This document shows positions 6,050 to 63,654 of a DNA stretch of 64,000 nt, piece by piece. The stretch's first letter is position 1, and every line of letters begins with the position of its first letter. Below the pieces are notes generated by a model that saw only the letters and a program-made list of their open reading frames with translations, made no database searches and was not told where the DNA came from. The translations under genes and the position numbers were made by a program. Source of the stretch: Ruminococcus flavefaciens (lineage in GTDB: Bacteria; Bacillota; Clostridia; Oscillospirales; Ruminococcaceae); the NCBI GenBank assembly GCA_023662725.1, contig JAMPIL010000001.1, positions 580,258-644,257 of the forward strand, written 5' to 3'.

Positions 6050-6081
6050 AATACAAAACAATTATGATATAGGAGATTATT

Positions 6082-8940: not shown

Positions 8941-8965
8941 ATTAAATTTCTCCTTTTTATATCTT

Positions 8966-9021: not shown

Positions 9022-9083
9022 TATTACAACATCATTTGTGGTATAATTTTGTTACAATAACATAAATGGGAGAGCAGATAGTT

Positions 9084-9446
9084 ATGCAACTTTACCATCG
9101 AATCCGAGATTTGCGTGAGGATAACGACTTAACTCAGGAAGCCTTATGCAAACAATTATATATGCATAAAACCACATATACCAATTATGAACAGGGAAAG
9201 CATACTGTTCCGCTGGATTTTGCAGTTTTGATCGCTGATTTCTACGATGTAAGTCTCGACTATATTGCCGGACGTACCAACTTTCCACATGGCAGTGCAA
9301 ATCCTGAATTTTCTTTGGATGAACTGAACGTTGTTGAAAAATTTTCCTCTCTCACTGAACGAAATAAAGGCAAACTTGAACAATTCTTAGACCAACTTTA
9401 CGAACAGCAGGAACACGCTTCCTCTATTTTAAAAGAAGCAAAATAA
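9084..9446 (+). CDS. XRE-family transcriptional regulator
   Basis: The 120-residue product has an N-terminal Cro/CI-type helix-turn-helix (about residues 4-58; RIRDLREDNDLTQEAL, then YTNYEQGKHTVP). A helical C-terminal tail may dimerise. ATG 9084 is preferred because GGGAGAG lies about ten bases upstream, while the in-frame ATG at 9066 has none. TATAAT at 9042-9047 is its probable -10 box. The ACAA-N3-TTGT palindromes between it and the divergent membrane gene suggest autoregulation and control of that gene. Confidence 0.85.
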   Translation: MQLYHRIRDLREDNDLTQEALCKQLYMHKTTYTNYEQGKHTVPLDFAVLIADFYDVSLDYIAGRTNFPHGSANPEFSLDELNVVEKFSSLTERNKGKLEQFLDQLYEQQEHASSILKEAK

Positions 9447-9464
9447 AACTTTCGGTCATAAGAT

Positions 9465-9507
9465 AAAAAATTCCCCTACAGACCAAAATCCGTAGGGGAA
9501 AATTTTT
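9465..9507. terminator. Bidirectional terminator between convergent genes
   Basis: TTCCCCTAC (9471-9479) pairs with GTAGGGGAA (9492-9500). The hairpin has an A-tract on the left and a T-tract on the right, so it works on both strands for the XRE gene and the PBP gene. Confidence 0.85.
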
Positions 9508-9513
9508 CAAATC

Positions 9514-11040
9514 TTAATAGCTGAAAACGATATCGATTATGCCCTTATAGAGCTGAGCAGATTCGCTTGCAAAACTAAAGTTGAAATCCTTAGGATTCTG
9601 AATCTGCATTACGATGATATAAGAACCTCCATTTGACCGATAATCGCTGTAATCTGAGTAAACTGAGCCGTTTTGTCCGTTATCGTTATAATTTTTTATG
9701 CAGCCTGTTATGTAAAGATAATCTCCTGCACCAGTTTCGGCAGTACCTGTTTTTGCTAAGAACTGATAGCCTTCGGGAACGTAAATTCCAAGATTAGAGG
9801 CAACTCCCGACATACCGTCAAGAAGGTTCTGACGGCACTCCGGAGGAATGCTGCCAATTATCTCATATGGATCGCTTCCCTGCTCAACAACGCTGTAGAA
9901 ATCGTTTGTATCAACAACATTCTTTATAACGAACGGCTTTACCATATCGCCGAAAACGGCTTCTCTGCCCAAAGCTGCAAGATAAATCGGACAGGTTCTA
10001 ACGTAAGACTGACCGAATGCACTTCTTCTCAGATCATCGTTACAGTAAACTTCAATATTATTTTCAAGCGAACCAAAATCGCAGTATATCTCATATCCAG
10101 GACCGAAATTAAACATATTTCCCAAATCGCTTAAAACTTCCTGAGTTCCTATCTGGTCGAAAGCTTTTGCAAAGAAAATATTGCTTGAATTGACAAAAGC
10201 TGAATAAAGCGAACGTTCTGCTATCGGATAAGAATAATTCGTATCGTGATCCCAGTTTACTATAGTTGCTCCGTCATCTACCCATGTTCCGTCATCATAC
10301 AGTGAAGTTATGCCATGCTTATCGGATATGACTTCAGACATTATTTTAAAGCAAGAACCCGGAGTTGCATTCTGGAATGCCTTATTTCCGCAAGCTCCCC
10401 AGCTAAGACTGTCAACGTAACTCTGATCGGAAATAAAGCGATCCGGATCGTATGATGGATATGATACTTCGGACAAAATTGAACCGTCGTTCCTCATTAC
10501 AACAACTGAACCAACTATTCCCATATTCTGCATATACTGATAAATCGCATTCTGAACGTCCGCATCAAGAGTAAGCTGAATTGAACGTCCGATATTTTCG
10601 TTTCCATTTACCGGAGAGGGATTATTATTTCTGAGAGTTTCCTCGAAAGTTTTATCGAATCCGCCGGACATTTCAGCTAAGATATTGGCGAACGAAATCT
10701 TATAACTCTCCGAGAAAGAACGGATCTCTTTTCCTGTTTCGTCCTGCCAGCTATACATGAGAATGTCGCCATCGGAATCATACAAATTTCCTTTAATAAC
10801 AGGAGGAGCAGTTGTAGTTGTTGTCGTTGTAGTAGTTGTCGCAGAAGTAGTTGTAACGGTTGTTTCCGGTTCTGTTTTTGGCTCGGTCGTTTCATCTTCA
10901 AAATCGGAATAGCCCTTGTTCATATTCATATCCGGAGAAGAATCGCCGGCTTTTTCAACAGTTGAACTGCAAGCTGTTGAAAAGGCTAAGATCAATGCTG
11001 AAATCATGATCGAAATCGTTCTTTTTCTTTTGTTTCTCAT
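9514..11040 (-). CDS. Lipoprotein with penicillin-binding transpeptidase domain
   Basis: The 508-residue protein starts with a lipoprotein signal (AFSTAC, Cys near residue 24), a Thr-rich stalk (about 55-82) and a penicillin-binding transpeptidase domain (about 150-508). The three active-site motifs are present: SCFK (SxxK) near 228, SSN (SxN) near 287 and KTGTAE near 428. It lacks the transmembrane helix and dimerisation domain of ordinary class B PBPs, so it is a compact FtsI/PbpA-like D,D-transpeptidase on a lipid anchor. It should cross-link peptidoglycan outside the cell and bind beta-lactams. The promoter is TTGACG-N17-TATAAT at 11081-11109. Confidence 0.85.
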   Translation of the reverse strand: MRNKRKRTISIMISALILAFSTACSSTVEKAGDSSPDMNMNKGYSDFEDETTEPKTEPETTVTTTSATTTTTTTTTTAPPVIKGNLYDSDGDILMYSWQDETGKEIRSFSESYKISFANILAEMSGGFDKTFEETLRNNNPSPVNGNENIGRSIQLTLDADVQNAIYQYMQNMGIVGSVVVMRNDGSILSEVSYPSYDPDRFISDQSYVDSLSWGACGNKAFQNATPGSCFKIMSEVISDKHGITSLYDDGTWVDDGATIVNWDHDTNYSYPIAERSLYSAFVNSSNIFFAKAFDQIGTQEVLSDLGNMFNFGPGYEIYCDFGSLENNIEVYCNDDLRRSAFGQSYVRTCPIYLAALGREAVFGDMVKPFVIKNVVDTNDFYSVVEQGSDPYEIIGSIPPECRQNLLDGMSGVASNLGIYVPEGYQFLAKTGTAETGAGDYLYITGCIKNYNDNGQNGSVYSDYSDYRSNGGSYIIVMQIQNPKDFNFSFASESAQLYKGIIDIVFSY

Positions 11041-11182: not shown

Positions 11183-11538
11183 GGATAACAGCATTTAATT
11201 TTTATCATGCTTATTAAGCGGACTTTGTTTCTTTGATTCCTTGCTAAAAGTAGTTATTTACATCTTGGCATTTTGCCTAAATTATTACCGATACCTCTTT
11301 TCGGGGTATCTGTAATAATTTAATTGTGGGTTTCCAAAGGGTGACTCCCCACAGTGTAGAGAGTTGTCGGCTTGCCGATAGAGTGGACGGGCGTCAGTTA
11401 TGCGAGGCTCACTTTGGCAGGGAGAAAGGGTGCCCAGTGGACACCTCTGCGAAGCAGAAGCACCGACCAAACCGACAATTTAGACTTAAGGTGACAGCAT
11501 CCCCTTTAGAATGTTTAGCAAAATTAAATGCTGTTACC
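11183..11538 (+). repeat. Structured repeat family, copy A (candidate ncRNA)
   Basis: This 356-bp non-coding element is closed by a long-range helix (11183-11202 with 11520-11538, about 19 pairs with one bulge). Inside are an AT-rich hairpin (11279-11321), a GTGGG/CCCAC stem enclosing TTTCCAAAGGGTGA, a GTCGG/CCGA(C/T) hairpin, a TCTGC-GAA-GCAGA hairpin, repeated ACCGAC motifs and a terminal hairpin with loop CAGCA (11488-11506). Copies at 19640 and 34030 keep the pairings with changed bases. Orientation was set by the shared sequence order. The family was not recognised. An ORF at 11326-11616 is incidental. Confidence 0.7.
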
Positions 11539-49615: not shown

Positions 49616-51028
49616 CTAAAGCTTTTTGTGTGCTTTTTGACATATTTTAATTATAACTTGTGATAAATATCTTCTCTGACTAATTAACACAAAAATTACA
49701 AACGGTATCTGTAAAAGACTGTTTTTAAATAAAATCGCTACAATAAGTTGAATAAATAAGATTGAAATACTGATAATTTGAGATTTCCAGTTCACCTTCA
49801 TACAGATGATGCCTCTCAGCTTTACAGTACGAATAATCCATATAGTCAAATACCCAAACATAGTTGCAATCGCAGCACCTAAAGCCCCTATAAATGGTAT
49901 AAGCGCAAAATTTAATATTGTATTTACTACTGAACCCAATATAGTAGTAATAGAGACGGATTTTGTTTTTTTCACAGCAGTGAAGATACACCCTTCAAAC
50001 AAAGCAATTCCATTAAATACAGTACCGAAAAGCAACGGAGGAACGTACTGCCAGGCAGCAAAAAAATCTTTTGCATATAAAATTCTGGCAATCAGCACAT
50101 TAAAAAGCATGATAAATGAACAGCCTAATATTGAAATGCAACTATAAATTGTGTAAACATTTCCTATAAATCCGTCTGTATCATCTTTATCAAACTCTTT
50201 GATTGCAGAGATAGACCATGCATTATAGAATATTGTCTGCACAGTCGAAAGAATAGTTGGAATCTTATATGCAACAGAATAAACTCCATTTACTGCCGCA
50301 CCGCAAAAAAAGGCAAGAATATATCTGTCGCTTGCATTATTAACCCACCACGCTACCGAACTTGCAATGAGTGGAAGGCAAAACGATAACATATCTTTGA
50401 ACAAACCACGAGGTACATCAACTTTTAGTGATTTTAATAAATCACTGCCAAATAACATAATTATCAGACTTATAAAGATACCTGCAATATTGGCAATGCA
50501 GTACCCAAACACGCCAATTTTAACAACAAGCAATAAGACTACATTCAATAAACAAGTAACTGTTGTATTCAAGAGTCCGCAAATTATCAACAATTTTACT
50601 TTGTTGACTGCCTTCAGATACATTGAAAAGATATTATAAAATGAATGCGTTACAAATGAAAAATACAGAAACAAAAAATACATGGTGCCAAGCTCGAACA
50701 AGTGCACTTTATATATCAGAAAAAGCACTCCGCATAATATAACACTTGCAATACTCGTTACTTTTATCCCGACTTTCACAACTTGTGACGGATCGTACAC
50801 TTTGTCAAGGCAGAAACGCAAAACTGCATCCTGCATATTTAAGGTCAATAGTGGGACAAGCAACTGAACTGTTGTAGAAACCAAGTCGAGGTTTCCATAA
50901 TCATTCGTACTTAATACATATGTATACAAAGGAACAATCAGAAACATTATGATCTTTGTCCCGAAATTGCTTATTGTAAATAACAGTGTATTTTTCGACA
51001 AATCACTGTACTTGCTTTTTTTACTCAT
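49616..51028 (-). CDS. Wzx-type polysaccharide flippase
   Basis: The 470-residue protein has 12-14 hydrophobic helices and the polysaccharide-biosynthesis (MOP superfamily) pattern: LLFTISNFGTKIIMFLIVPL at the start and YSVAYKIPTILSTVQTIFYN mid-protein. It should flip lipid-linked repeat units to the outer face for polymerisation. It lies 29 bases downstream of the pyruvyltransferase fusion. Confidence 0.9.
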   Translation of the reverse strand: MSKKSKYSDLSKNTLLFTISNFGTKIIMFLIVPLYTYVLSTNDYGNLDLVSTTVQLLVPLLTLNMQDAVLRFCLDKVYDPSQVVKVGIKVTSIASVILCGVLFLIYKVHLFELGTMYFLFLYFSFVTHSFYNIFSMYLKAVNKVKLLIICGLLNTTVTCLLNVVLLLVVKIGVFGYCIANIAGIFISLIIMLFGSDLLKSLKVDVPRGLFKDMLSFCLPLIASSVAWWVNNASDRYILAFFCGAAVNGVYSVAYKIPTILSTVQTIFYNAWSISAIKEFDKDDTDGFIGNVYTIYSCISILGCSFIMLFNVLIARILYAKDFFAAWQYVPPLLFGTVFNGIALFEGCIFTAVKKTKSVSITTILGSVVNTILNFALIPFIGALGAAIATMFGYLTIWIIRTVKLRGIICMKVNWKSQIISISILFIQLIVAILFKNSLLQIPFVIFVLISQRRYLSQVIIKICQKAHKKL

Positions 51029-51057
51029 TTATCAACATCATCTCCCGAACATTTCAG

Positions 51058-53424
51058 TTATCTGCGTTTTGCTTTCTTTATAAAACCCAGACTCCTTTTC
51101 GTTGCGGACAATAATTTCCTGAATCTAAAAATGCTTTTATATTTTCTTTCAACGCCACTGATTCCATTTTCTGCATACTCTCTCTTCATTTTTGAGCGAA
51201 CATGAGTATATGACGAAGGTTTACATAGATTGGAATGGCTTAATTGCACTCTTTTTCTTGAAACAGGATATAAAAACAGCTTATTCCCAAATTCTGAAAT
51301 CAATTTTTGCCCTTTCTGCGAATTGATAAGCAAGCAATTTATGTAATCGGAATCATGCATAACAGCGCCTTCACGAAAAAGTCCGGGATAATCTTCTCTT
51401 GCCTCAAAATAATCACCGATTGTAATATCCGCCGGTTTTTCTGCTGAAGCATATTCGCAATGATAACATTGGTCACGGTAACTGTCTTGGTGCATAAACA
51501 TATCATAATAACCTGATTTTTCAATCGGAACAGTTATCTTTTTTTGTTTATCGTCAGATGTCAGATTTCCTGAAATCTGATACCTGATATCTCCTGATTC
51601 TTTAGACCTGAATGAAAAATCAGAAAATTCTCCGCCATTTACCTTGCTAAGAAATTTAGTATAATCAGAAAAAAGTTTAAAGCCAGGAACGCCGTGACAG
51701 ATTAAATCTATTGTAAAAAGTTGATCAATCTCAATATTTTTAATTGCAAGATAACTGTAAAGTGCTTTCACCTGACAAGATGTTCCACAAAACAAAACAC
51801 TTTTTTTCTTTTTCAATGCTTCTGCAGCAGCACTGTAAATATTTGCGCAATTGCTTTCTGCATATTTAGAACCCAGTACATTTTCTAACTGCTCAGCCTT
51901 ATCAACAATAATATGTGAAATATCCGGTATTCCATGACTGAATGACAATTCAGATGCAGCAACTAATCCTCCATTATTAATGAAAGAATATGCCAGTGCT
52001 GAAAAGACACCACCTGATGCTGAAATTTGCCTTTGATTTTTATCGGTGTTATATGCAATAAATGCTTTTTCTGTATTTATAAACTGGTTGGGAGTAACAT
52101 AATGACACACTTTACTGCATAATTTACAGTTGATACATTTTTCGCTATTTATTGTTGGTATTCTATAACCAAAATCGGAATAGGAAACAGTAATTGCATC
52201 TGTCGGACAAATACCCGCACACGCCATACAGCCTGTGCAGTTTTCTTTACTCTTTAAAGTCACCTCAGGTTGGAAAGACTCTTGGTGTGTTTCAATCGCA
52301 TTCAATAAATACTCTGATATTGCCAAACTTTCCTTATCTTTTATCACATCAAAACAAGGCGTCACCGACTCTAACTGTGTAATATCACATGAATCATTTG
52401 TAATATACCTGTCAGCACAGTTGTATATTGAAAATAGATTCTGTAACCTACTGCTTTGTTTATTGTTGTGACCATAAATTCTTTCAAATGTGAAAAAAGA
52501 CTTATTAAAAATGATAGAGAAGTGAGATGTGTGAAATGAATCAGTACACACAAATCTTGCGTTTTTTATTAAGGCAACATAATCATAAGGGTTACCGCTT
52601 TTCAAAACATGATTATATACTTCGCTGTATTCTGCATAATCATTTGCAAAACACCATGTATTCAGGTTATGTTTTTGAGCGAGATACGAAATTGTTTTTA
52701 ATGCTGTCTGATTTGGCGCACCTAAAAAATGGACAAAAATATAATCTTCATCCATCGTCATACCTTTTTTTGAAAAGTCTTCCCATTCTTCCGAACTTAA
52801 CAACATTATTGGGTCTGCTAAGCGCGGAACAGTTCTTGATGTTAATTCCTGAATGATCTTTACGCCTGATTCTTCTCTTGCAGATAACACAGGAATTTTG
52901 GAAATAGACTTCTTAAAATGTGAATAATTGAAATCTTTAATTTTTTCTACACCAAAGCTCGGTGATAAAGCCACCTTTTTTTTGTCATCCACAAATTCCA
53001 AAAACATAAACGGATGAACTAAGTAACCGCCACCCCAAACTTGATCACTTCCCGAAATGAAAAAATCGTAGTTTCCATTGAAGTGTTTAGAGTTTATAAG
53101 CCTGTACTCCACCCCTTTGGGCTGAAGTACAGACTCGCAAAACCAGTCTAATCCAAATTTAGATTCAGCAGTCATGCTATGATTGTTTTTCTGAATGCTA
53201 TTTTTTATTTGTTTCCGATTTCTCCAAAATCCTCTGTATCTGATAGAATGGTAAAGTATGTTCAGGATAGACTTTATCTTTGATTTGACTTTTTCAGTGC
53301 CATGTTCCTCTATAAAAAGCACATCACACTCACATCCATGTTTTTTTAAAAAAGTTTTGGTTGCATAACACTGCAATTCTGAACCGTAGTTATCACGAAA
53401 AAGAGTGATGAGTCCAATTCTCAT
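51058..53424 (-). CDS. Polysaccharide pyruvyltransferase fused to FrhB-type Fe-S flavoprotein
   Basis: The 788-residue protein joins two enzymes. Residues about 1-380 are a pyruvyltransferase-family domain (RIGLITLFRDNYGSELQC, FISGSDQVWGGGY, TDSFHTSHFSIIF). Residues about 395-788 are a coenzyme F420 hydrogenase/dehydrogenase beta-like domain with two ferredoxin motifs (CTGCMACAGICP, CINCKLCSKVCH), ASGGVFSALA, FCGTSCQVKALY and DQCYHCEYAS. Separate pairs of these genes are common in Firmicute capsule loci; here they are one chain. It probably decorates the polysaccharide, with the redox half acting on a sugar or on the pyruvyl group; this is inference. Confidence 0.88.
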   Translation of the reverse strand: MRIGLITLFRDNYGSELQCYATKTFLKKHGCECDVLFIEEHGTEKVKSKIKSILNILYHSIRYRGFWRNRKQIKNSIQKNNHSMTAESKFGLDWFCESVLQPKGVEYRLINSKHFNGNYDFFISGSDQVWGGGYLVHPFMFLEFVDDKKKVALSPSFGVEKIKDFNYSHFKKSISKIPVLSAREESGVKIIQELTSRTVPRLADPIMLLSSEEWEDFSKKGMTMDEDYIFVHFLGAPNQTALKTISYLAQKHNLNTWCFANDYAEYSEVYNHVLKSGNPYDYVALIKNARFVCTDSFHTSHFSIIFNKSFFTFERIYGHNNKQSSRLQNLFSIYNCADRYITNDSCDITQLESVTPCFDVIKDKESLAISEYLLNAIETHQESFQPEVTLKSKENCTGCMACAGICPTDAITVSYSDFGYRIPTINSEKCINCKLCSKVCHYVTPNQFINTEKAFIAYNTDKNQRQISASGGVFSALAYSFINNGGLVAASELSFSHGIPDISHIIVDKAEQLENVLGSKYAESNCANIYSAAAEALKKKKSVLFCGTSCQVKALYSYLAIKNIEIDQLFTIDLICHGVPGFKLFSDYTKFLSKVNGGEFSDFSFRSKESGDIRYQISGNLTSDDKQKKITVPIEKSGYYDMFMHQDSYRDQCYHCEYASAEKPADITIGDYFEAREDYPGLFREGAVMHDSDYINCLLINSQKGQKLISEFGNKLFLYPVSRKRVQLSHSNLCKPSSYTHVRSKMKREYAENGISGVERKYKSIFRFRKLLSATKRSLGFIKKAKRR

Positions 53425-53445
53425 ATTTTTTCCTTTCCGACATTG

Positions 53446-54180
53446 TTAATGATTACTTGTCTTTTTTCTTCCAAAAACTTTCTTTAACCATTCGGCAAAT
53501 GTTTCCCCAAAAATTCTTCGTGATGACCGGTATACTTTTCCTCTGAACTTACTATACCCACTCTTCCAGCTTGCAGCATAATGGTGAACGGAAACTGTAT
53601 TTTTAGTAATATGTACCCTTCCGGTATTCATGTCCGTTGGCTGAAAATATTCCATCGGATATACTGTTGTGCCGCCGACTACCTGCATCTGATTATTTAA
53701 CTTCAAACCAAATTTACAGAGAATTTCTGTTTCTCGTTCACATACTGTAAGCAGGTTTAACTCGCCGTTTTCCTTTAGGAATTTATCTTTCGCATATGAT
53801 TCAAGCATTAATTCACATACTTTATCATGCTTTTCGGCAGCTCGCACCAATCCACTATTAATTAATTTCTCGGATTCAAATCCAACGCAAGTGCTTGCTA
53901 TGCTGTCTATCGGTTTCAGCAATTCCACATCGGTATCCAGATATATGCCGCCATAATTATAAAGCACGAAAAAACGACAGTAGTCTGAAACAAAAGCCCA
54001 CTTTTTAGACGCATATGCTTCTTTGACATAATCGCAGCAATTTATGTCAAAATTATCTTCGTTCCATTCTTTGATTTCATAGTCAGGGCAGAATCTTTTC
54101 CAGCTTTCGATACACTTTAGTATCAACCTGGATTTCGGATTTTTGCCGAACCAGCAGTAATGGATAACTTTATTATTCAT
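53446..54180 (-). CDS. GT32-like capsular glycosyltransferase
   Basis: The 244-residue protein carries the sugar-binding DXD region of this family (FVSDYCRFFVLYNYGGIYLD and then TDVELLKP near 80-92), with the typical opening VIHYCWFGKNPKS. It transfers a sugar onto the lipid-linked repeat unit in the cytoplasm. Donor and acceptor are unknown. Confidence 0.9.
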   Translation of the reverse strand: MNNKVIHYCWFGKNPKSRLILKCIESWKRFCPDYEIKEWNEDNFDINCCDYVKEAYASKKWAFVSDYCRFFVLYNYGGIYLDTDVELLKPIDSIASTCVGFESEKLINSGLVRAAEKHDKVCELMLESYAKDKFLKENGELNLLTVCERETEILCKFGLKLNNQMQVVGGTTVYPMEYFQPTDMNTGRVHITKNTVSVHHYAASWKSGYSKFRGKVYRSSRRIFGETFAEWLKKVFGRKKTSNH

Positions 54181-54195
54181 ATATTGTCTCCTTAC

Positions 54196-55275
54196 TCATT
54201 GCCATAAAGTATATGGTAGAACTCCAGACCAATATGGCCGCCATATTAAAATCACAAGATTATACATTAAGCATCCACTAATTATGCCAATTGATAAATA
54301 TATTTTTTTCTTTGGGTTTGTGATTCTGACAATTGAATTTGGAACAGATACACAAAACATAATCGTGAAGTATGTACCCATTCTGCTCAATATTGATCCA
54401 TTTACGGATGCAAGGGTTATCACGAATCCCAATAATGCCATCCAATACTCTACTTGTTCTTTCTTGCTTCCATCGCTATTTTTTCTATAGCTAAATTCAA
54501 CAATTAAAAAGAATAGAAAATAGACCAATGCTTTGAGTACAATTCCTAATTTATTCTGCTGAAAATACTGGTCAGATGTTAAGTACTTTGAGTATATTGG
54601 CATTATCTTTATCATTATAGGCAACAGTTGTCCAGTTCCAAGAGCAATCACTGTAGAGATCAATATATAAATATATCTTTTTTGCGAATCAAGTTTGACA
54701 TAGGATAAGGGAAAGAGGATTAGTATTACAAAAGCTGATGTGTGGAATAAACCTGCAACAACGGTAATACAAACAAACAATAGTTTTTTATCTTCTTTTA
54801 GAAAATGGATTGCTAAGAATGTTAATGCAATAGACAGATACTGCCTCATCATATTCATTGAATCATAAAAGAACATTAACGTCATGAACATCAATACAGA
54901 AAACCATGGCAATTTTGATTCTTTATAAAACACAATATATATAATGCATAATATAATTAACGAACTGCAAAAAATCAATGCATGAGGATCAGAAGTAAAG
55001 CGTGATATAATATATTGATACAATATGTAGCCCAGTTCAAATCTGTCATTATCTATGTCTAAAGTATTAGAAGCGGCAATTCTATTAAATAAGCGGACGT
55101 ACATTTGTGTGTCCATTCCAACGTTTAGTCCACGAAGTCCTGATAAAATCAACAAATTAAAAAAAGAAATTACCCCAAATAAAACAGATAGTATTTTCTC
55201 ATATTTTTTGTTTTTTATTGCGATTAAGCAGCTTAAAAACAACAATATAGAGGTTGGTATTAAAAAACAATGCAT
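54196..55275 (-). CDS. EpsG-family polysaccharide polymerase
   Basis: The 359-residue membrane protein has about ten helices and EpsG marks: LSGLRGLNVGMDTQMYV, MNMMRQYLSIALTFLAIHFL and GLFHTSAFV. It should act as the Wzy-like polymerase of the capsule. It is 28 bases downstream of the GT4 gene. Confidence 0.87.
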   Translation of the reverse strand: MHCFLIPTSILLFLSCLIAIKNKKYEKILSVLFGVISFFNLLILSGLRGLNVGMDTQMYVRLFNRIAASNTLDIDNDRFELGYILYQYIISRFTSDPHALIFCSSLIILCIIYIVFYKESKLPWFSVLMFMTLMFFYDSMNMMRQYLSIALTFLAIHFLKEDKKLLFVCITVVAGLFHTSAFVILILFPLSYVKLDSQKRYIYILISTVIALGTGQLLPIMIKIMPIYSKYLTSDQYFQQNKLGIVLKALVYFLFFLIVEFSYRKNSDGSKKEQVEYWMALLGFVITLASVNGSILSRMGTYFTIMFCVSVPNSIVRITNPKKKIYLSIGIISGCLMYNLVILIWRPYWSGVLPYTLWQ

Positions 55276-55303
55276 TGATACATTCTCCTATATTTGGAAC
55301 TCA

Positions 55304-56401
55304 TTAATAGTTAGAAAGCCATTTTTTTATAAATTCTGTTTTCCCAAACCCCTTTTCTTCAAGAGCAACGGCACGAGAATTTCTTAATTCCATATTCTCT
55401 ATTTTCCTGACATTTTCTATTGCATCAACCCATTTTTGTATATTGTCAGTGGGAATAATTTGTACCAAATTCAATCCAACTTCAACTTCCGGTGTAACTT
55501 TATCAGAAATAATACATGGGCATCCCGCTGCCTGAGCTTCAAGCATTGTTACTGGAAATCCTTCGCCAGGCAAAGACGGCAAAATAACACAATCAAATAA
55601 TTTCATCAATACCGGTATATCCTGCCTTTGACCTGTAAGAATAACGTTACCGATACCTGACGCTAAACTTTTTATCTCTTCAAATTCAATTCCATCCCCA
55701 ACGAGAACAAATTTAAATTTTGTATTTTTCTTCATAGATTTGGCAAGTTCCAGTATAAAACGCTGATTTTTCATCGGACTCATTCTTCCTACATGACCTA
55801 TTAGTATATCATCATTTATACCCAATGAACTACGGACTTCATTTAATTCTTCTTTAGTAACAGATATGTAATCATCTATATTCACAGCATTATAAATAAC
55901 CTCATATTTTTCCTTTTCAAACAGAAAATCTCCAGCCATTCTACTGCACGCAATATTGCACGTTGAATTTTTTAAAAGCATCCGAAAAAAAGGAGCAGCA
56001 ATAATTTTTTTTATTGCAGATGTTTTTCGTTGGATTGCCGTAACATGAGAGTGACATATCCGATTTGAAATGCCGGCATTTTTAGCAGCAAGCAGTGAAA
56101 CTCCTGATTGCATACCAGTATGTACATGAATAGCATCATATCTTATCTGATTATTTTTCAATAATTTTTTCACCGCATTGTAGTATGAAAATATGCCCAT
56201 TTTTCGCACATCACCTGGTAGGATATATACATTAGATCCGTTTTTTCTTAACATTTCTACAACATCAATTTTAGTTGTTCCCTCATGAGTCAGAAAATCA
56301 AAATGATACTTATCCTTATCCATATTATTCATAATGTCCAGAACCACTGTAGTGTCTCCGCCACATCCTAAGTGACCTATAACCTGCAATACATTTTTCA
56401 T
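55304..56401 (-). CDS. GT4-family glycosyltransferase
   Basis: The 365-residue protein has the GT-B layout: QVIGHLGCGGDTTVVLDI at the start, HVHTGMQSGVSLLAAK, then GHVGRMSPMKNQRFILELA and the C-terminal donor site SLPGEGFPVTMLEAQAAGCP with the EX7E pattern. It resembles EpsF-type enzymes. Its ATG overlaps the stop of the GT2 gene by four bases. Confidence 0.92.
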   Translation of the reverse strand: MKNVLQVIGHLGCGGDTTVVLDIMNNMDKDKYHFDFLTHEGTTKIDVVEMLRKNGSNVYILPGDVRKMGIFSYYNAVKKLLKNNQIRYDAIHVHTGMQSGVSLLAAKNAGISNRICHSHVTAIQRKTSAIKKIIAAPFFRMLLKNSTCNIACSRMAGDFLFEKEKYEVIYNAVNIDDYISVTKEELNEVRSSLGINDDILIGHVGRMSPMKNQRFILELAKSMKKNTKFKFVLVGDGIEFEEIKSLASGIGNVILTGQRQDIPVLMKLFDCVILPSLPGEGFPVTMLEAQAAGCPCIISDKVTPEVEVGLNLVQIIPTDNIQKWVDAIENVRKIENMELRNSRAVALEEKGFGKTEFIKKWLSNY

Positions 56402-57174
56402 TTTCCACCTCTTATATAGATTCTTTTAATACTTGCATGGTAAGCCCACCCGATTAAACAGATTACAGATTTTGGAATCGAAAGATGTTCCACTCCTCGA
56501 TACAAATACCAAGTCCGCTTCATTGCAGAAAACTTATTTGCACTAAGCGACTGTGGCACTCGACGATACTGTGCTAAAACTTCATTTTGGCCTACAAATT
56601 CAACTCCATTGCGGAGCATCTGTAACCAAGTTGCAGAATCCTGTCCACGCCGCACATTAGGCATTATCAACAGCTTGCGATCAACCATATCCAGATCAAC
56701 GATAACGCCTACTGTCTGAATGATTGTATTACTTAAAAGCTGATTATATGTAATAGTCCTTGGCATATGGACAATCTTGTTCAATGATGTACCGTCTGCT
56801 TCAATTTTTTCATAATCGCAACAACTGAATTGAACATTATTCTTAGTCATAAATTTAATCTGACGTTCCAACTTATTTGGCAACCAAATATCATCTGCAT
56901 CCAAATATGCAATATATCGTCCTTTAGCTGCATCAAGACCAGCATTTCGTGCTAACGCCGCACCGCCATTTTTAAGCTGTTTGATATAACGTATGCGATT
57001 ATCTTTTTTGACATAAGCCTGAATAATTTCTGCACTGTTATCAGGGGTGCAGTCATCTACAAGTAACATTTCCCAGTTGGTGTATGTCTGTTTCTGAACA
57101 CTTTCAATTGTATTAGAAAGATACTTGGCACAGTTATATACAGGCGTAATGATTGAAACTAAGTCTTTTGCCAT
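56398..57174 (-). CDS. GT2-family glycosyltransferase
   Basis: The 258-residue protein has the GT-A family 2 fold: VSIITPVYNCAKYLSNTIES, LLVDDCTPDNS, ARNAGLDAAKGRYIAYLDAD with the DXD-type metal site and RRGQDSATWLQML. It adds a sugar to the capsule repeat unit. ATGA overlap couples it to the following GT4 gene. Confidence 0.93.
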   Translation of the reverse strand: MAKDLVSIITPVYNCAKYLSNTIESVQKQTYTNWEMLLVDDCTPDNSAEIIQAYVKKDNRIRYIKQLKNGGAALARNAGLDAAKGRYIAYLDADDIWLPNKLERQIKFMTKNNVQFSCCDYEKIEADGTSLNKIVHMPRTITYNQLLSNTIIQTVGVIVDLDMVDRKLLIMPNVRRGQDSATWLQMLRNGVEFVGQNEVLAQYRRVPQSLSANKFSAMKRTWYLYRGVEHLSIPKSVICLIGWAYHASIKRIYIRGGK

Positions 57175-57204
57175 TGATTACGACCTCCCAAAATGCTGTA
57201 CATT

Positions 57205-58440
57205 TTAATCTCTTCTAAAAATATCCCTTGTATAAACTTTCTCTTGAACGTCATCCAAACAACTGTCATAACGGTTAGCAATAATTGCTTGACTCTGATT
57301 CTTGAATTCTTTCAAATCATTTACAACTCTGCTGCTAAAGAACGTAGTATTATCTTCTAAAGCAGGCTCATAAATGATCACATTCGCACCTTTTGCCCTA
57401 ATTCGTTTCATAACACCTTGAATAGAACTTTGGCGGAAATTATCAGAATTGCTTTTCATAGTCAAACGATATACACCAATTGTAATAGGCTTTTCCTTTG
57501 AAGAATGATATTCACCATCTGCGTAGGAGTAGTAATTTGCTATTTCCAGCACTCTATCAGCAATAAAATCCTTACGGGTACGATTTGACTCGACAATTGC
57601 TGTCATCATATTCTGAGGAACATTCTCATAATTAGCAAGCAACTGCTTGGTATCTTTTGGCAAACAGTAACCGCCATACCCAAAACTTGGATTGTTATAA
57701 TGTGAGCCGATACGAGGATCAAGACATACTCCATCAATAATCTGCTGCGTGTTCAAACCTTTCAGTTCTGCATAGGTGTCCAATTCATTAAAATAGGAAA
57801 CTCTCAATGCGAGATAAGTATTGGCAAATAGTTTGACTGCTTCTGCCTCTGTAAACCCCATAAAGAGCGTATCAATATTTTCTTTCATTGCACCTTCTTG
57901 CAGGAGTTCTGCAAAGATATGAGCAGCTTTCACTAAACGCTCGTCTTGCATATCAGTTCCGACAATTATTCTACTCGGATAAAGATTGTCATAGAGAGCC
58001 TTTGACTCACGCAGGAATTCAGGACTGAAAATAATTTTTTTACTACCTGTTTTTTCACGGATACATTCAGTGTAACCTACAGGAATTGTTGATTTAATAA
58101 CCATAATTGCATCCGGATTATACTGCATAACAAGAGCGATAACTGACTCAACAGCAGATGTATCAAAGAAATTTTTCTTGCTGTCATAATTGGTAGGTGC
58201 TGCGATAACAACAAGATCCGCATCGCTGTATGCTTTCTTTGCATCCAATGTTGCAGTCAGATTCAATTCTTTTTCAGACAAATATGTTTCAATATAATCA
58301 TCCTGAATTGGGGATTTTCTGTTATTGATCATTTCTACCTTTTCAGGAATAATATCAACTGCCATAACCTCATGGTGCTGTGCCAATAATACAGCAATTG
58401 ATAATCCAACGTAACCTGTACCTGCTACTGCGATTTTCAT
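57205..58440 (-). CDS. UDP-glucose 6-dehydrogenase family
   Basis: The 411-residue protein has the NAD-binding [20 protein letters not shown], the KSTIPVGYT and FSPEFLRES segments, and the catalytic Cys in [15 protein letters not shown] near 255. It oxidises a UDP-sugar to the uronic acid, most likely UDP-glucuronate for the capsule. A UDP-GlcNAc/ManNAc dehydrogenase is less likely from the motifs. Confidence 0.92.
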
Positions 58441-58453
58441 ATTTCACGCTCCT

Positions 58454-59194
58454 TCATTTTGCACCCTTTCTTTGTAAAACCGACATAACCGTCTTAAAAA
58501 CAATCTTCATATCCAATCCAAAAGAACAATTCCGCACATAATACAACTCCATATCCTGACGCTTGTGTTCTTCATATCCAACATCATTTCTCGCATAAGC
58601 CTGCCAGTAACCAGTTAAGCCGGGTTTTACCGATAAAAATTCAGTTTCTTCACGCTCGGTATAATTAGTGGAAAGCTCCTCAGACAAAACAGGTCTCGGT
58701 CCGACAACGGACATATTTCCGAGCAGACAAATGTTGTAGACAATCTGCGGAAGCTCGTCCACCGACCACTGACGGATTTTTGCCCCGAAACATTTCTTAC
58801 CGTCACCCGGATTTTTATATCCTATCAGTCTCGGATCATCGTCCAGCTTATACTCTTTTTTATATTCTTCAAGCTGCTCGGATGTCAGGAATTCTTCAAG
58901 ATGATCTGCGTTTTTCTTCATAGTGCGAAATTTCAGGATTTTCAGCGGTTGCCCTGACTGCCCCACCCGCTCCTGCATATAAAAAGGATTTCCTGGATCT
59001 TTTATAAAAATTATCAATGCAATAACAGCAACCGGAATCAGTATCACAATGGTCGCAATTAAAGAAGATATAAAATCAAATATTCGCTTGAATATAAGAT
59101 AAAATAACCCTGCTTTATTTGCAATGCCGGCATTCGGATATGTAATAGTTTTCGTTCTTATTTCTGCTTTATCTTTCACACTAACATCTTTCAT
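58454..59194 (-). CDS. Initiating sugar-1-phosphate transferase (WcaJ/CpsE type)
   Basis: The 246-residue protein has one N-terminal membrane helix pair (about 36-62) and the bacterial sugar transferase domain: KRIFDFISSLIA, FYMQERVGQSG, LKILKFRTMKKNADHLEEF, VVGPRPVLSEE and VKPGLTGYWQA. It moves a hexose-1-phosphate from UDP-sugar to undecaprenyl phosphate, starting repeat-unit synthesis. Confidence 0.94.
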   Translation of the reverse strand: MKDVSVKDKAEIRTKTITYPNAGIANKAGLFYLIFKRIFDFISSLIATIVILIPVAVIALIIFIKDPGNPFYMQERVGQSGQPLKILKFRTMKKNADHLEEFLTSEQLEEYKKEYKLDDDPRLIGYKNPGDGKKCFGAKIRQWSVDELPQIVYNICLLGNMSVVGPRPVLSEELSTNYTEREETEFLSVKPGLTGYWQAYARNDVGYEEHKRQDMELYYVRNCSFGLDMKIVFKTVMSVLQRKGAK

Positions 59195-59256: not shown

Positions 59257-59448
59257 TTAATTCCAGCATTCTCTGCAAAGCTGGCCGCAACCGTCAACAT
59301 AATACTTCCTTTTGTCAGCAGGAGTTCCTCGGTTGATTTCAGTTTTGCATCCGCAAAGAATGCAGCTTTCAATTTCATCTGGCACAATAAAAATACTGCA
59401 TCGGTTTTCCGACGCATCGGAAATATTCTTTTTAACAGATAAAGTCAT
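59257..59448 (-). CDS. Small Cys-rich (zinc-finger-like) protein in the capsule operon
   Basis: The 63-residue protein overlaps the phosphatase stop by one base (TAATG), so it is translationally coupled and probably real. The second half has CILCGC and CGQLCREC, a four- to five-Cys knuckle pattern like a treble-clef or zinc ribbon. No function is known. It lies between the CpsB phosphatase and the initiating transferase, and may modulate one of them. Confidence 0.6.
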   Translation of the reverse strand: MTLSVKKNISDASENRCSIFIVPDEIESCILCGCKTEINRGTPADKRKYYVDGCGQLCRECWN

Positions 59449-60116
59449 TATCTTTTCGCCGCCTCTAATATTTTTTCGGAATTTTCCAGTATATCAGCAG
59501 AAACTTTCTTACGGAGCAACTCCCAATTCGGTTTTCTATCCAAAAGGTTATGACTGTCAGAACCAAAGATGATCGGATAGCCGTTTTTAATCAATTTCCT
59601 TACGAAATTACGCTGTTTGAAACTTCCGAATGTCTCGTTATTCACCTGAAAAATCGCTTTCATTTTCAAAACGCTATTCATATGCTCTCTGCTGAAAATA
59701 TCCATATACCGATGAATATGGGCAATAACAGGCTTTAGCTTGTACTCTGCGGAAATATTGTAAATTTCATCCTCCATCCACGACGAATATCCGGTGTATG
59801 GAAACTCCAATAGAATCAGATTTGTCCCTTGAAATGCAAGTTTTTCAAGGTCAGGCAGTTCGGAAATACCATGCTCAATTGCAATTTCTGCACCCAGATG
59901 AATATTTTCAGGTGAACCCATTTTTTCATAGGATTTCTGTCGCTTTTGAAGAAAATCACGCACGGACTTCTCACGGTGAGCATAGAAATGCGGCGTAGCG
60001 TAAATCTGCTCAATGCCTTGCTCTTTCAGCATCTCCAACAGTTTCAATGACATTTCCACACTTTCCGAACCGTCGTCAATTTTAGGCAGAATATGGATAT
60101 GGGATTCCGTCATCAT
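59448..60116 (-). CDS. cpsB: PHP-type tyrosine phosphatase CpsB
   Basis: The 222-residue protein has the PHP metal motifs: ESHIHILPKIDDGS at the start, ATPHFY, VIAHIHRY and FGSDSHNL. CpsB/YwqE-type enzymes dephosphorylate the Tyr-rich tail of the BY-kinase. Its start overlaps the kinase stop by four bases, as usual for this pair. Confidence 0.93.
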   Translation of the reverse strand: MMTESHIHILPKIDDGSESVEMSLKLLEMLKEQGIEQIYATPHFYAHREKSVRDFLQKRQKSYEKMGSPENIHLGAEIAIEHGISELPDLEKLAFQGTNLILLEFPYTGYSSWMEDEIYNISAEYKLKPVIAHIHRYMDIFSREHMNSVLKMKAIFQVNNETFGSFKQRNFVRKLIKNGYPIIFGSDSHNLLDRKPNWELLRKKVSADILENSEKILEAAKR

Positions 60117-61603
60117 ATAGATTCCTCGGTTTTTGTTTCAGTATTGCCGTAGCCATATTTGTACTGATACTTCCCATATTTGCTGTAATAACCGCTTCTG
60201 TACTTGGTCTGGATATCGTTCAGCACAAATCCAAGATGCTTCATATCGGCAAGCTGAATTCGGTTCATTGCAGTTTCCACATCATCGAATGTTGTAGAGC
60301 CGTACTTGACAACCATCATGATTCCGGCTACAAATCGGCTTACATTCAAAGCATCAGAAACCACATTGATTGGCGGTGCATCAATGATGATATAATCATA
60401 ACGCTCCGAAAGCTGTTTCAGCATTTCCTCCATTCTTGCAGAGCCGAGTAGTTCGGAAGGGTTAGGCGGTATCTCACCGGACGGCAGAAGATCAAGATTC
60501 TCAATATCCGTGCCGTGAATGGATTTGTCAATTTCCGACATTTTGCTGAGCAGCGAAGAAAGACCAATTTTGTTTTTTACTCCGAAATTGGCAGCCTGCA
60601 CAGGCTTGCGAAGGTCACCGTCACACAGCAGAACTTTGTTATTGCTTTGTGCAAGCGTGATCGCAATATTCACAGCAGTAGTTGATTTTCCCTCATTAGG
60701 ATTTGCGCTCGAAATAACAAACGTCTTATTTTCCGATGTCGAAAGTGCAAACAAAAGATTGGTACGCATGGATTTATAGCTTTCAACCACGTTGAATGAA
60801 ACGTTTTTATCCAGCATAGCAGGCTTTTTGTGAGAATTTTCGGCTTTTTGCCTGTTGGATTTTTTCTTATCATTGCAAGAGCGTATTTCTTCTATTTCGC
60901 CAAGAATCGGCCTTTCGTATTTATTGGAAAGAGTTTCGGCGGATTTCACTGTATTATCGAAAAAGTCAATCAAAAGTATAATAAGTACACTCAGCATAAG
61001 CCCTGCAAGTCCACCTATTATGGTATTCTTTTTCATATTAGGAGCGACCGGCGTATTGTACACCTTTGCGGTATCAATTGACTTTATCTCACCTACGCCA
61101 ATTGCTTTTGTTGTAAACTGATTTGCTTGTCTGCAAAGCTCATTACAGATAGCCGCAGACAATTTTGCATTCTTTGTGGTGGCAACAATATTGATTGCAC
61201 TTGTATCTGTCACAGTGCTTATCGTAATTGCAGAGGCAATGGAAGACGGTTTGATCTTTCCGTCTGATACTGAAAAATTCTCCACAATGATTTTCTCGTC
61301 AAATTGCTTTGTCAAGGAATTTCCCACCGACTCCATAACCGCATCATCTTTCAGAACTTCGATATATGTGTTGATCAGCTGCTTTGATTTGCTGATGTCG
61401 TTATAATTATCGCTGCTCTCGTTTGAAATGCCTGTGTAGCTTTGCACATACATTGAAATATGCGATGAATACTGCAATGGCATAAAAAATTTTGTATAAC
61501 CAAATGCCGCACCTGCACCGATGATAAGAGCAATCAAAAGAATAACTGACTTGCTCCACAGCAGCTTAAAAATATCTGCAATTGAGATTGAATTGTTGTT
61601 CAT
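60113..61603 (-). CDS. Wzz-BY-kinase fusion (CpsCD-like)
   Basis: The 496-residue protein joins a chain-length determinant domain (membrane helices about 18-38 and 183-205) to a cytoplasmic tyrosine kinase. Walker A is ANPNEGKSTTA, A' is LLCDGDLRKP, Walker B is YIIIDAPP, and the tail is Tyr-rich (YRSGYYSKYGKYQYKYGYG). It controls polymer length and export. In many Firmicutes these are two proteins; here they are one. It is the first gene of the capsule operon. AAGGAG precedes the ATG, and the left arm of the inverted repeat begins 50 bases upstream. Confidence 0.94.
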   Translation of the reverse strand: MNNNSISIADIFKLLWSKSVILLIALIIGAGAAFGYTKFFMPLQYSSHISMYVQSYTGISNESSDNYNDISKSKQLINTYIEVLKDDAVMESVGNSLTKQFDEKIIVENFSVSDGKIKPSSIASAITISTVTDTSAINIVATTKNAKLSAAICNELCRQANQFTTKAIGVGEIKSIDTAKVYNTPVAPNMKKNTIIGGLAGLMLSVLIILLIDFFDNTVKSAETLSNKYERPILGEIEEIRSCNDKKKSNRQKAENSHKKPAMLDKNVSFNVVESYKSMRTNLLFALSTSENKTFVISSANPNEGKSTTAVNIAITLAQSNNKVLLCDGDLRKPVQAANFGVKNKIGLSSLLSKMSEIDKSIHGTDIENLDLLPSGEIPPNPSELLGSARMEEMLKQLSERYDYIIIDAPPINVVSDALNVSRFVAGIMMVVKYGSTTFDDVETAMNRIQLADMKHLGFVLNDIQTKYRSGYYSKYGKYQYKYGYGNTETKTEESI

Positions 61604-61652
61604 CGGTATATTTACTCCTTGTTTTCAAAAAATATAGTATCGGATTTTATAT

Positions 61653-61678
61653 GGTTTTTCACAAAAGGTTCACTTTTA
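61653..61678 (+). repeat. Left 26-bp inverted repeat of the switch
   Basis: The arm starts GGTTTTTCAC and ends TTCACTTTTA, and is the exact reverse complement of 62990-63015. Similarity stops sharply at both edges. Confidence 0.95.
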
Positions 61679-61720
61679 GGAAATCCACCCAATATTCAAT
61701 TTTCAAGATACTATAAAAAA

Positions 61721-62797
61721 TCAGAAATTTGCCTGAATTCGTTTCATAAACTCCTGTTTCTGAGAAAAGTCCGAATGCACGTACTTTTCAAGGGTAATTC
61801 TGACGTTGGAATGCCCTAAAATCTCGCTCAAAGTCTTGACATCAAAGCCAAGTTTCACGCATTTTGTAGCGAACATATGCCGCAGGGCGTGGAAATGAAT
61901 TGACGGTAGTTTTACGTTTTTCAAAATCTTTGCAAAACGGTACTGCATCGTTCTTGGCTCAACAGGTTTTGCAGTTCCGGAGCATATATATTCATCCTCT
62001 TTTCCTTGAAACGCTTTCAAAAATTCGATAATGCAATCGGGAATCGGGATTTTTCGCTTGGAAGTCTCGCTTTTCGGCTCAGTGATGACAAGTTTTGTTC
62101 ACTTTTTTCCGGAAATCTGAATCCTCTGCATCGTTTTTCTGACGGTCAGAATCCTTTTTTCTAAATCAATGTCCTTCCACTGCAAAGCGCACAACTCGCC
62201 GATACGAATCCCTGTCACCATCGCAAACGCAACACCTAAAGTTGCGTTATTTTTATGCATAGAAAGATATTCCTGCAATTTATCCTGCTGTTCATCGGTA
62301 AGCAGCAAGATTTCAGGAGCTTTTTTCTTTGGCATCAGAATGCCTGTCATTGGATTTTTAGCGGAATATGCATTGGCTGCGTATTTGAATATCGTCTTTA
62401 TCAGAACTAAAATATCTGTGATATATCGGGCGGAAAGCCCCTCGTTCTGCTTCTTTGCAATGAAATCATAGATCATTTTCGGCTTGATCGACATAATGTA
62501 AAGATCGCCCATCGCATCAAGCAGATGTTTTTTCCATTTCATCAGATAATTCGCTGCCGTGGACTCCTTAACACGATGCTGAATGCTCTGGAACCATTCG
62601 GCGAACAACTCACGGAATGTCAGACTGCAATTGCAGTCACTGTGAATATCTCGCAATACCGCCATTTTTTCTATGACTTCTTCTTTTGTTTTGCCGAAAT
62701 AAGCGTGATATTTCCTTCCACCTGACTCATTTTTGCCCTCGTAAATCCTGCCTTCCCAGCGACCGTCACGACGCAAATAAATGTTGAAACCTTTCAT
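61721..62797 (-). pseudogene. Tyrosine recombinase/integrase interrupted by in-frame TGA
   Basis: ATG 62797 follows GGAGGG. The frame reads an N-terminal SAM-like core-binding domain (SLTFRELFAEWFQ, then KWKKHLLDAMGD) and the catalytic domain with the first Arg in VTGIRIGELCALQWKDID. A TGA at 62101-62099 follows ISGKK, and the same frame continues TKLVITEPKSETSKRKIPIP through HALRHMFATKC, LGHSN and the nucleophile Tyr in ITLEKYVHS to 61721. Intact length would be about 358 residues. One base change explains the lesion; all catalytic residues are otherwise present. Confidence 0.88.
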
Positions 62798-62868
62798 TTT
62801 CGTACCCTCCATTTATTTATTTTCAACAAATCAATAGGTTGAATTTCACTTGATTCTGATATTTTCTA

Positions 62869-62897
62869 AAAATATTCGATTCATATTGACTTTTCAA
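62869..62897 (-). promoter_or_regulatory. Promoter of the recombinase gene
   Basis: The minus strand reads TTGAAA (62897-62892), 17 bases, TATTTT (62874-62869), about 70 bases before the start codon. It overlaps the rightward promoter back to back. Confidence 0.6.
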
Positions 62898-62914
62898 TTC
62901 TCAAGTGCTATAAT
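62886..62914 (+). promoter_or_regulatory. Rightward promoter inside the invertible segment
   Basis: TTGACT (62886-62891), 17 bases, TATAAT (62909-62914) is close to consensus. It points toward the right inverted repeat 75 bases away. Confidence 0.8.
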
Positions 62915-62989
62915 ATATAGCGTAGTAAATTTGTTTGTTCACAAGTTGATTTGAGCGAACGATTCTACATAAATTATTATAGCATACCG

Positions 62990-63015
62990 TAAAAGTGAAC
63001 CTTTTGTGAAAAACC
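62990..63015 (-). repeat. Right 26-bp inverted repeat of the switch
   Basis: Exact reverse complement of 61653-61678, ending ...GTGAAAAACC at 63015. Confidence 0.95.
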
Positions 63016-63017
63016 GC

Positions 63018-63053
63018 ACCGAATCAGGCTCATTCAGGCACGATTCGGTTTTA
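63018..63053 (+). terminator. Terminator-like hairpin just outside the right repeat
   Basis: ACCGAATC (63018-63025) pairs with GATTCGGT (63042-63049), followed by TTTAGTT. It would stop transcripts from the rightward promoter in the orientation shown. The 16-base loop is rather long. Confidence 0.6.
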
Positions 63054-63065
63054 GTTAAGTCCATG

Positions 63066-63084
63066 TTACTCATATTATGAGTAA
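63066..63084. promoter_or_regulatory. Operator palindrome of the XRE gene
   Basis: TTACTCATA-T-TATGAGTAA is a perfect 19-base palindrome about 40 bases upstream of the start codon, probably for autoregulation. Confidence 0.65.
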
Positions 63085-63123
63085 AAGTCAATATAAGTAT
63101 CTACCAGAAATACGGAGGCGATC

Positions 63124-63351
63124 TTGTTGAAACTGCGATTAAGATTAAGAGATCTGAGAGAAGATAATGACATGAGTCAGGCAGAAATGGCGAAACTACT
63201 GGGATGTTCGCAGCAGACCTACTCACGATACGAATCTCATACCACTGAAATTCCGCTGGAACAATTGATTTTTCTTGCGGATTATTATGATACCAGTGTG
63301 GATTATCTGCTGGGGATTACAAATCATGATGAAGCCTATCCGAGAAAATAA
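63124..63351 (+). CDS. Short XRE-family regulator beside the switch
   Basis: GGAGG at 63114-63118 serves a TTG start at 63124 (or the next TTG at 63127). The 75-residue protein is one helix-turn-helix domain (RLRDLREDNDMSQAEMAKLL, QQTYSRYESHTTEIP) and resembles the N-terminal part of the 9084 regulator. It may control itself through the upstream palindrome and perhaps the recombinase or capsule genes. Confidence 0.85.
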   Translation: MLKLRLRLRDLREDNDMSQAEMAKLLGCSQQTYSRYESHTTEIPLEQLIFLADYYDTSVDYLLGITNHDEAYPRK

Positions 63352-63399
63352 CGGAAATGACCGTCAAGATGATTTGCTTTGAAATTCAAGGCAAAATCA

Positions 63400-63424
63400 A
63401 AACCACCCGTAAAACGGGTGGTTT
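63400..63424. terminator. Hairpin after the XRE gene
   Basis: AAACCACCCGT (63400-63410) pairs perfectly with ACGGGTGGTTT (63414-63424); the T-tract is short. Confidence 0.65.
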
Positions 63425-63429
63425 GAGTA

Positions 63430-63654
63430 AATGAGATTGAATCTGCGGTCAGCAATTTCCACGTGAATATCCAGCAGGCTCAGCTTATCATCAAAAGATT
63501 CCGGAATCAATTCAGGATTCAGTATATCGACCTTATAATTTTCTGTCAGCGGCAAATCCAGCATATCACGCAGTTATGCCCGTAAAATATGCTTGCTGCT
63601 TACCAACATCGCCTTGAACATCACATCATGGGATGCAGCAATAATTTCTGCCAT
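63430..63654 (-). pseudogene. PD-(D/E)XK nuclease/transposase (Rpn-like) fragment
   Basis: ATG 63654 behind AAAGGA reads MAEIIAASHDVMFKAMLVSS, TAA interrupts at 63576-63574, and homology continues LRDMLDLPLTEN, IPESFDDKLSLLDIHVEIADRRFN. This is the N-terminal quarter of the PD-(D/E)XK transposase-like (Rpn) family. The C-terminal part is missing. The sequence from 63655 to 63797 holds no recognisable gene. Confidence 0.7.

Follow-up and report, generated by a model that had tools for sequence, protein, structure and literature searches.

A probable integrase-encoding inverton before a capsule operon of Ruminococcus flavefaciens, and a family of related elements in Clostridia

The DNA analyzed here, a stretch of 64,000 nucleotides from Ruminococcus flavefaciens that we call the window, very probably contains an integrase-encoding inverton whose ON orientation would read a capsule operon and whose OFF orientation would read a hairpin; the window copy is most likely locked, or nearly locked, in OFF. 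In the proposed mechanism, two inverted tyrosine-recombinase core sites, with half-sites of about 10 bp and a 7-bp spacer, would bound a 1.36-kb segment that carries, along with a recombinase gene, a single strong promoter directed outward. The segment would be turned over by recombination between the core sites. In the ON orientation the promoter would read into a 12-kb capsule operon; in OFF, the orientation found in the window, it would read into a terminator-like hairpin outside the right repeat. We infer that transcription would follow the orientation of the segment and that the capsule would phase-vary. At the level of the family, comparison of loci shows repeats, a conserved predicted outward promoter, inversion between homologous loci, and hairpins placed as predicted in about half of the loci.

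The window element and the capsule operon

The element is bounded by a left inverted repeat at 61653..61678 (plus strand) and a right inverted repeat at 62990..63015 (minus strand), complementary at 26/26 positions and separated by 1311 nt, as expected for the end repeats of an inverton. The core of the left repeat consists of an outer half-site, TTTCACAAAA, the 7-nt spacer GGTTCAC, and an inner half-site, TTTTAGGAAA, which extends past the 26 identical bases; the right repeat carries the same core in inverted orientation. This arrangement matches the layout of half-site, 7-nt spacer, and inverted half-site found in the Clostridia integrase-inverton family described below, in which arms were found by identity, and its half-site pairing, with a dyad score of 14/20, is poorer than that of many relatives. 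With up to three mismatches allowed, the 26-bp repeat has two copies only in the 3.1-Mb genome, and on that count the reading of the element as a repeat present elsewhere was rejected. The exact repeat was also sought in viral contigs, with no matches. Within the window, the search for perfect inverted repeats of at least 16 nt within 3 kb found one other, of 17 nt, at 11186-11202 and 11520-11536; the longest such repeat in 20 first-order Markov simulations of the window was 19 nt.

Between the repeats, the element of about 1.36 kb holds a minus-strand recombinase gene and an outward promoter. A preliminary description of this DNA, made from the sequence alone, had reported perfect 26-bp repeats around a tyrosine recombinase gene. 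The repeats stand as described, at 26/26; the gene proves not to be intact, being interrupted by an in-frame TGA. The promoter, TTGACT-N17-TATAAT with an extended -10 box, lies on the plus strand at 62886..62914, between the recombinase start (62812) and the right repeat, through which it points outward, as expected of an inverton. With 11/12 consensus matches and a TG extension, it bears out the near-consensus rightward promoter described earlier. It ranks first among 12 promoter-like sites in 61400-63500, where shuffles give 6.7 such sites on average. Scores of at least 10.3 occur at four sites on both strands of the whole window, while 19 of 20 simulations had none and the remaining one had a single site.

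Outside the right repeat, a terminator-like hairpin with an 8-bp stem and a short T run (63018..63053, plus strand) faces the promoter in its present orientation, on the non-target side, where about half of the loci in the family also have one. The folding energy of 63010-63075 is -14.6 kcal/mol, with a z-score of -2.9, and 1 of 200 shuffles did as well. A standard terminator scan, with a loop limit of 8, does not list this hairpin, and it is absent from the preliminary description.

The operon on the other side begins at 61603, 49 nt from the left repeat, in keeping with the 50 bases given earlier. Its first gene (60113..61603, minus strand) encodes a fusion of Wzz and BY-kinase with Wzz, GNVR, and AAA domains, and the product scores above cut-off for a polysaccharide autokinase model. 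A CpsB/CapC-type phosphatase, recognized by domain match, follows at 59448..60116 on the same strand. The remaining genes (49616..59194, minus strand), assigned from the gene list and domain matches, comprise a sugar transferase, a UDP-sugar dehydrogenase, three glycosyltransferase-type genes, an EpsG-family polymerase-like gene, a pyruvyl transferase fusion, and a flippase-type gene. In all, ten main genes run in one direction over 12 kb, from 61603 down to 49616.

The gap between the left repeat and the Wzz start (61604..61652, minus strand) holds a ribosome-binding site, recognized by eye, and no good promoter. Over the 300 nt upstream of the Wzz start, promoter scores reach 7.1 at best as the DNA lies, as against 10.4 once the segment is reversed in silico, when the -10 box ends 150 nt from the Wzz ATG. 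These values uphold three points of the preliminary description, namely that only poor promoter matches precede the operon, that a flip would bring the promoter to about 150 bases upstream of the Wzz-BY-kinase gene, and that the assembly represents the OFF state, with the promoter pointing away from the operon and no good alternative at hand.

Wzz relatives at an E-value of 1e-60 occur in 66 of 125 genomes of the genus. We examined 30 Wzz loci, 27 of them with about 1.5 kb of upstream sequence. An integrase of the family appears within that distance in two of the 27, the window's own and that of genome G087, so the link between element and capsule is sporadic. A promoter score of at least 9.2 occurs within 300 nt upstream in 17 of 26 element-free Wzz loci, a set from which two loci with too little sequence were omitted and in which some entries may be near-duplicates. 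Given 7.1 for the window in its present orientation and 10.4 after reversal, with most element-free relatives reaching at least 9.2, the window's capsule operon seems to depend on the invertible promoter. Elements also precede a Wzz gene in two further loci, L064 and L069, where gene orientation gives the OFF state in each. In G087 the element before the capsule operon is decayed (L179 4387-5265), with a truncated integrase and no evident repeat, and its promoter, TTGACATATTGTATAAAAAGTGCTATAAT (L179 5237-5265), aims, partly as judged by eye, at a broken dehydrogenase gene and Wzz. This decayed element is likely a locked-ON remnant. In genome G117, from the species with the most similar Wzz, the contig starts within that gene; the closest integrase there is likewise truncated by the start of its contig, a different one.

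A family of related elements in Clostridia

When 100 genomes of the genus were searched at the DNA level, 29 gave matches, the window's own genome included. Named genomes were scanned with an alignment of 14 integrases, and the best 80 of 577 confirmed stretches were used. After removal of duplicates and fragments, 98 integrases, the window's among them, were examined, with the scan contributing only through those best 80 of 577. Most of the 80 stretches listed belong to metagenome assemblies titled Ruminococcus, Ruminiclostridium, Oscillospiraceae, Lachnospiraceae, or Clostridia; a small number are from isolates, for example Ruminococcus callidus ATCC 27760 and R. flavefaciens FD-1. The counts that follow include related loci, and loci that share a genome or come from similar samples are not independent.

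Flanking inverted repeats scoring at least 16 at the expected distance were found for 78 of the 98 integrases among the matches listed. In a control of 600 pairs with swapped flanks, scores had a 99% quantile of 14 and reached 28 at most, as expected if elements share half-sites. The 20 integrases without a qualifying repeat, eight of them at contig ends, were excluded from the promoter, hairpin, and spacer counts. Three of the 78 elements have repeats of 55, 136, and 181 nt, which may be assembly effects. The longest belongs to locus L057 (about 5088-7856), where sequences related to the L058 target occur on both sides; there the promoter might alternate between two genes, or the arrangement might be an assembly artefact.

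In the closer relatives, the arms read TTTCGCAAAA-N7-TTTTGCGAAA, that is, half-site, 7-nt spacer, and inverted half-site, the core layout of tyrosine recombinases; in more distant relatives the dyad is often weak. Spacers were tabulated for 76 elements, two of the 78 being omitted. A 7-nt spacer fits 65 of the 76 among the matches listed, with ties settled in favor of 7. The spacer is identical in both arms in 74 of these 76, a figure partly built in by the finding of arms through identity. No such bias enters the comparison between elements: the 76 listed elements have 73 different spacers.

On the outward strand between integrase start and repeat, the mean promoter score of the 78 listed elements is 9.83, compared with 7.53 in shuffles, and 70 of the 78 have a site that outscores the best of 20 shuffles. 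The opposite strand stays near background (mean 7.67, against 7.45 in shuffles). By these scores, the putative promoter of the window is one of a conserved set of outward promoters. Genes targeted by other elements encode a pilin-like protein (L066), a leucine-rich-repeat protein (L082), and, as checked with Pfam, a LytTR regulator (L037). LytTR-like regulators were also seen by eye after elements in L054, L088, L091, L097, L100, L103, L104, and L107. The targets at L041 and L046 matched no Pfam family above cut-off, and a name associated with type VII secretion, given by eye to the targets at L041 and L048, was dropped on that result for L041.

Two pairs of homologous loci differ by the orientation of the element. 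L055 and L058, from different assemblies, have elements that align over 1.3 kb in one direction at 80% identity, while the target side is reversed (L055 203-732 with L058 7638-7126), as is the other side (L055 2172-2487 with L058 5750-5437). Likewise, the elements of L041 and L048 align directly (9063-10351 with 315-1587), with both flanks reversed (8740-8944 with 2003-1799 and 10386-10584 with 341-125), and by eye the two loci seem to share one terminator, which flanks the element on one side in L041 and on the other in L048. Because elements are collinear and both flanks reversed in each pair, we read these alignments as the segment turning over in this integrase family while its surroundings stay. 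The inverted form in related genomes, which the preliminary description had named as a check, is thus represented by two pairs of homologous family loci and not by the capsule locus, for which a comparison of one genome per species found no second orientation and no inverted homologous pair.

A distant relative of the integrase occurs on Enterococcus raffinosus plasmids with repeats of 18 or 25 nt (L194, L195, L196, L199). The element of L194 is about 79% identical to those of L195, L196, and L199, whose left flank is 99% identical to that of L194. Comparison of L194 with the other three showed one orientation and no inversion among these four comparable strains; a further locus, L197, aligns to L194 nowhere. 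In the annotated record of L194, secA2 and secY2 come after one gene beyond the element. The integrase of a Ruminococcus albus 7 plasmid (L193) has only a weak repeat, 21/24.

States were called from gene orientation alone, as a rule of thumb, which among the 78 loci listed gave 42 OFF, 9 ON, 11 with targets on both sides, and 16 with no target. Hairpins were counted when they reached -8 kcal/mol or better, had a T run, and lay within 80 nt of the repeat. Among the matches listed, OFF loci have such a hairpin on the side the promoter faces in 22 of 41 cases, against 1 of 42 for the other side, whereas ON loci have it in 1 of 9 and 4 of 9, respectively. Loci with targets on both sides gave 4/11 and 0/11, and those with no target 6/16 and 1/14, again among the matches listed. 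At a control distance of 200-280 nt, the counts were 3/38 and 3/42 for OFF loci and 2/9 and 1/9 for ON loci. Fisher tests, in which both sides of a locus count as independent observations, gave p = 6e-8 for side against side in OFF loci, p = 0.002 for ON against OFF loci on the integrase-end side, and p = 0.03 for OFF against ON loci on the promoter side. The hairpin is missing in 19 of the 41 OFF loci listed, including L058, L064, and L069; L055, like L058, has a hairpin on neither side, and L063 has one on both. Judged from these placements, the promoter in this family would most likely alternate between an operon and a dead end, and the simplest reading is that the dead end would be a hairpin adjacent to the repeat in about half of the loci.

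The interrupted recombinase and rival readings

The recombinase gene of the window lies in two pieces of one frame on the minus strand. Its 5' part, of 237 aa (62099..62812), contains Phage_int_SAM_3 and the first part of Phage_integrase, and ends at a premature in-frame TGA (62099..62101). The 3' part (61721..62098), identified by domain match and alignment, continues the frame with the HALRH and Tyr regions and no further stop, and the C-terminal match to Phage_integrase falls within 61721-62020. The Phage_integrase domain, therefore, is split around the TGA rather than held in one uninterrupted frame. An alignment with 20 relatives, out of 22 matches with two fragments omitted, places an amino acid residue opposite the TGA in every one (20/20). 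Either the gene may have died recently, or the TGA may be an error or a population variant. The preliminary description had the segment flipped by its own recombinase. For the window copy as assembled, that claim is not supported, because the stop cuts the protein before its HxxRH and Tyr regions, and the same stop makes the copy most likely locked or nearly locked in OFF, unless another integrase acts on its sites.

Two other elements of the same genome have an uninterrupted Phage_integrase frame, unlike the window's. The one on contig C16 (L035 9608-10929) has a 27/27 repeat, a 359-aa integrase 62% identical to the window's, an outward promoter, and a hairpin, and precedes a 206-aa gene and two long secreted-looking proteins, named by eye. 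The one on contig C10 (L192 4265-5650) has a 22/22 repeat and a 366-aa integrase 43% identical to the C16 protein; it is OFF by gene orientation and precedes genes for a LytTR response regulator, a GHKL-type kinase, and AgrB.

How far the window copy is locked turns on two alternatives. The switch may still be active, with the stop codon arising from an error in sequencing or assembly or being carried by part of the population, a possibility to which we assign the smaller share of belief; the 3' part keeps its frame and its HALRH and Tyr regions with no further stop, and the repeats are still perfect, but the assembly has a single sequence there, within a contig of 1.4 Mb, and the genome is rated 99.96% complete. 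Recombination of the window sites in trans by the C16 or C10 integrase appears somewhat less probable still. Both genes are uninterrupted, with repeats of their own, and the outer half-site of the window is one base off that of C16; against this, the window's inner half-sites and spacer are unlike those of C16, and nearly all elements differ in spacer.

The locked or nearly locked inverton has also to be weighed against readings in which orientation matters less or not at all. In one, transcripts arising upstream of the recombinase would read through into the operon in OFF, so that capsule would be expressed in both orientations, though not at the same level. As the segment now lies, recombinase and operon run in one direction with no terminator called between them, and a promoter-like site by the neighboring HTH gene points toward both; such a transcript, however, would have to cross the 63018-63053 hairpin and the 1.1-kb recombinase gene, and the best score in the 300 nt before the operon, 7.1, is near shuffle level. 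We regard this as rather unlikely. Very improbable, in our estimate, is a single-gene mobile element that landed before the operon by chance and has no regulatory role, although the genes preceded by related elements are many and varied, and several genomes carry two or more related integrases. The outward promoter is conserved, hairpins are placed accordingly, homologous loci differ by inversion, and the capsule operon is without another good promoter. Nor was any target duplication, which the preliminary description had named as the mark of a simple transposon, seen by eye in the window flanks; with this and the inversion between homologous loci, the simple transposon was rejected.

The HTH gene just mentioned, small and of Cro/CI type (HTH_3), lies on the non-target side at 63124..63351 (plus strand). 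Relatives of it flank L035, L036, L037, L042, and L043, with a diverged form at L055 and L058; the neighbor of the C16 element (L035) is very similar to the window's. The promoter-like site, TTGACT-N17-TAACAT with 9/12 matches (63063..63091, minus strand), overlaps the palindrome TTACTCATATTATGAGTAA and points into the element. A TTACTCA..TGAGTAA palindrome occurs between HTH gene and element in the window, L035, L036, L037, L042, and L043, within a promoter-like site aimed into the element (relatives' boxes by eye). One idea suggested by this arrangement is that the site would feed the recombinase gene in OFF and oppose it in ON; it is possible, too, that the HTH protein, as a repressor, controls the recombinase in one orientation only.

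More tentatively, these loci may represent dispersed, self-contained switches before capsule, pilin-like, surface, and Agr-like operons of gut and rumen Clostridia, each with its own tyrosine recombinase and a private spacer, the recombinase being HTH-gated in a subset and the capsule switch being frozen OFF while its sisters can flip. If so, an operator-bearing promoter of the neighboring HTH repressor would in that subset point into the segment, and recombinase transcription, together with switching from OFF to ON, would be under repressor control in the OFF orientation only. The recurrent cassette would consist of recombinase, private sites, outward promoter, and often an external hairpin, standing before capsule, pilin-like, leucine-rich surface, or Agr-like genes. 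It would make phase variation predictable in poorly tractable Clostridia, with the likely OFF or ON state readable from an assembly, and the stop codon in the window's recombinase would offer a natural locked state for comparison.

Comparison with known systems

Promoter inversion by tyrosine recombinases is a well-known phenomenon. The fimS switch of E. coli, acted on by FimB and FimE, resembles the window in the features compared, a repeat-bounded promoter segment, a tyrosine recombinase, and an operon for a surface structure. It spans 314 bp, with FimB and FimE encoded outside it, unlike the window, where the recombinase gene lies inside the segment. By sequence, the nearest solved structure is the Int of PDB entries 6en0, 6emy, and 6emz (E-value 2.5e-16 with the C16 integrase), which we take to be the enzyme of the conjugative transposon Tn1549 that moves that transposon; elements of the window family differ in having the integrase gene alone between the repeats.

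Hin of Salmonella is a serine recombinase, in contrast to the tyrosine recombinase of the window. Like the window's, it is encoded within its invertible segment, according to PMC5903667. The same paper describes an 844-bp invertible segment with 14-bp imperfect repeats that encloses a recombinase ORF, a likeness to the window in layout (PMC5903667). In Clostridia of a defined gut community, inverton group 139 has been linked to tyrosine-recombinase group 35, and the orientation of clostridial invertons shifts in reads, as reported in PMC11892184. Two examples of group 139 span about 255 bp there and are too short for a recombinase gene (PMC11892184), whereas the window segment spans 1.36 kb. 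Among the titles and abstract openings listed, there was no description of a clostridial inverton family that encloses its tyrosine recombinase, which is not proof of absence; to that extent the self-encoding family seems undescribed, while precedents for enclosed recombinases exist in Hin and the 844-bp segment. The RecV protein of C. difficile is a tyrosine recombinase that runs invertible switches and serves several segments (PMC5903667), whereas segments of the window family each encode a recombinase of their own.
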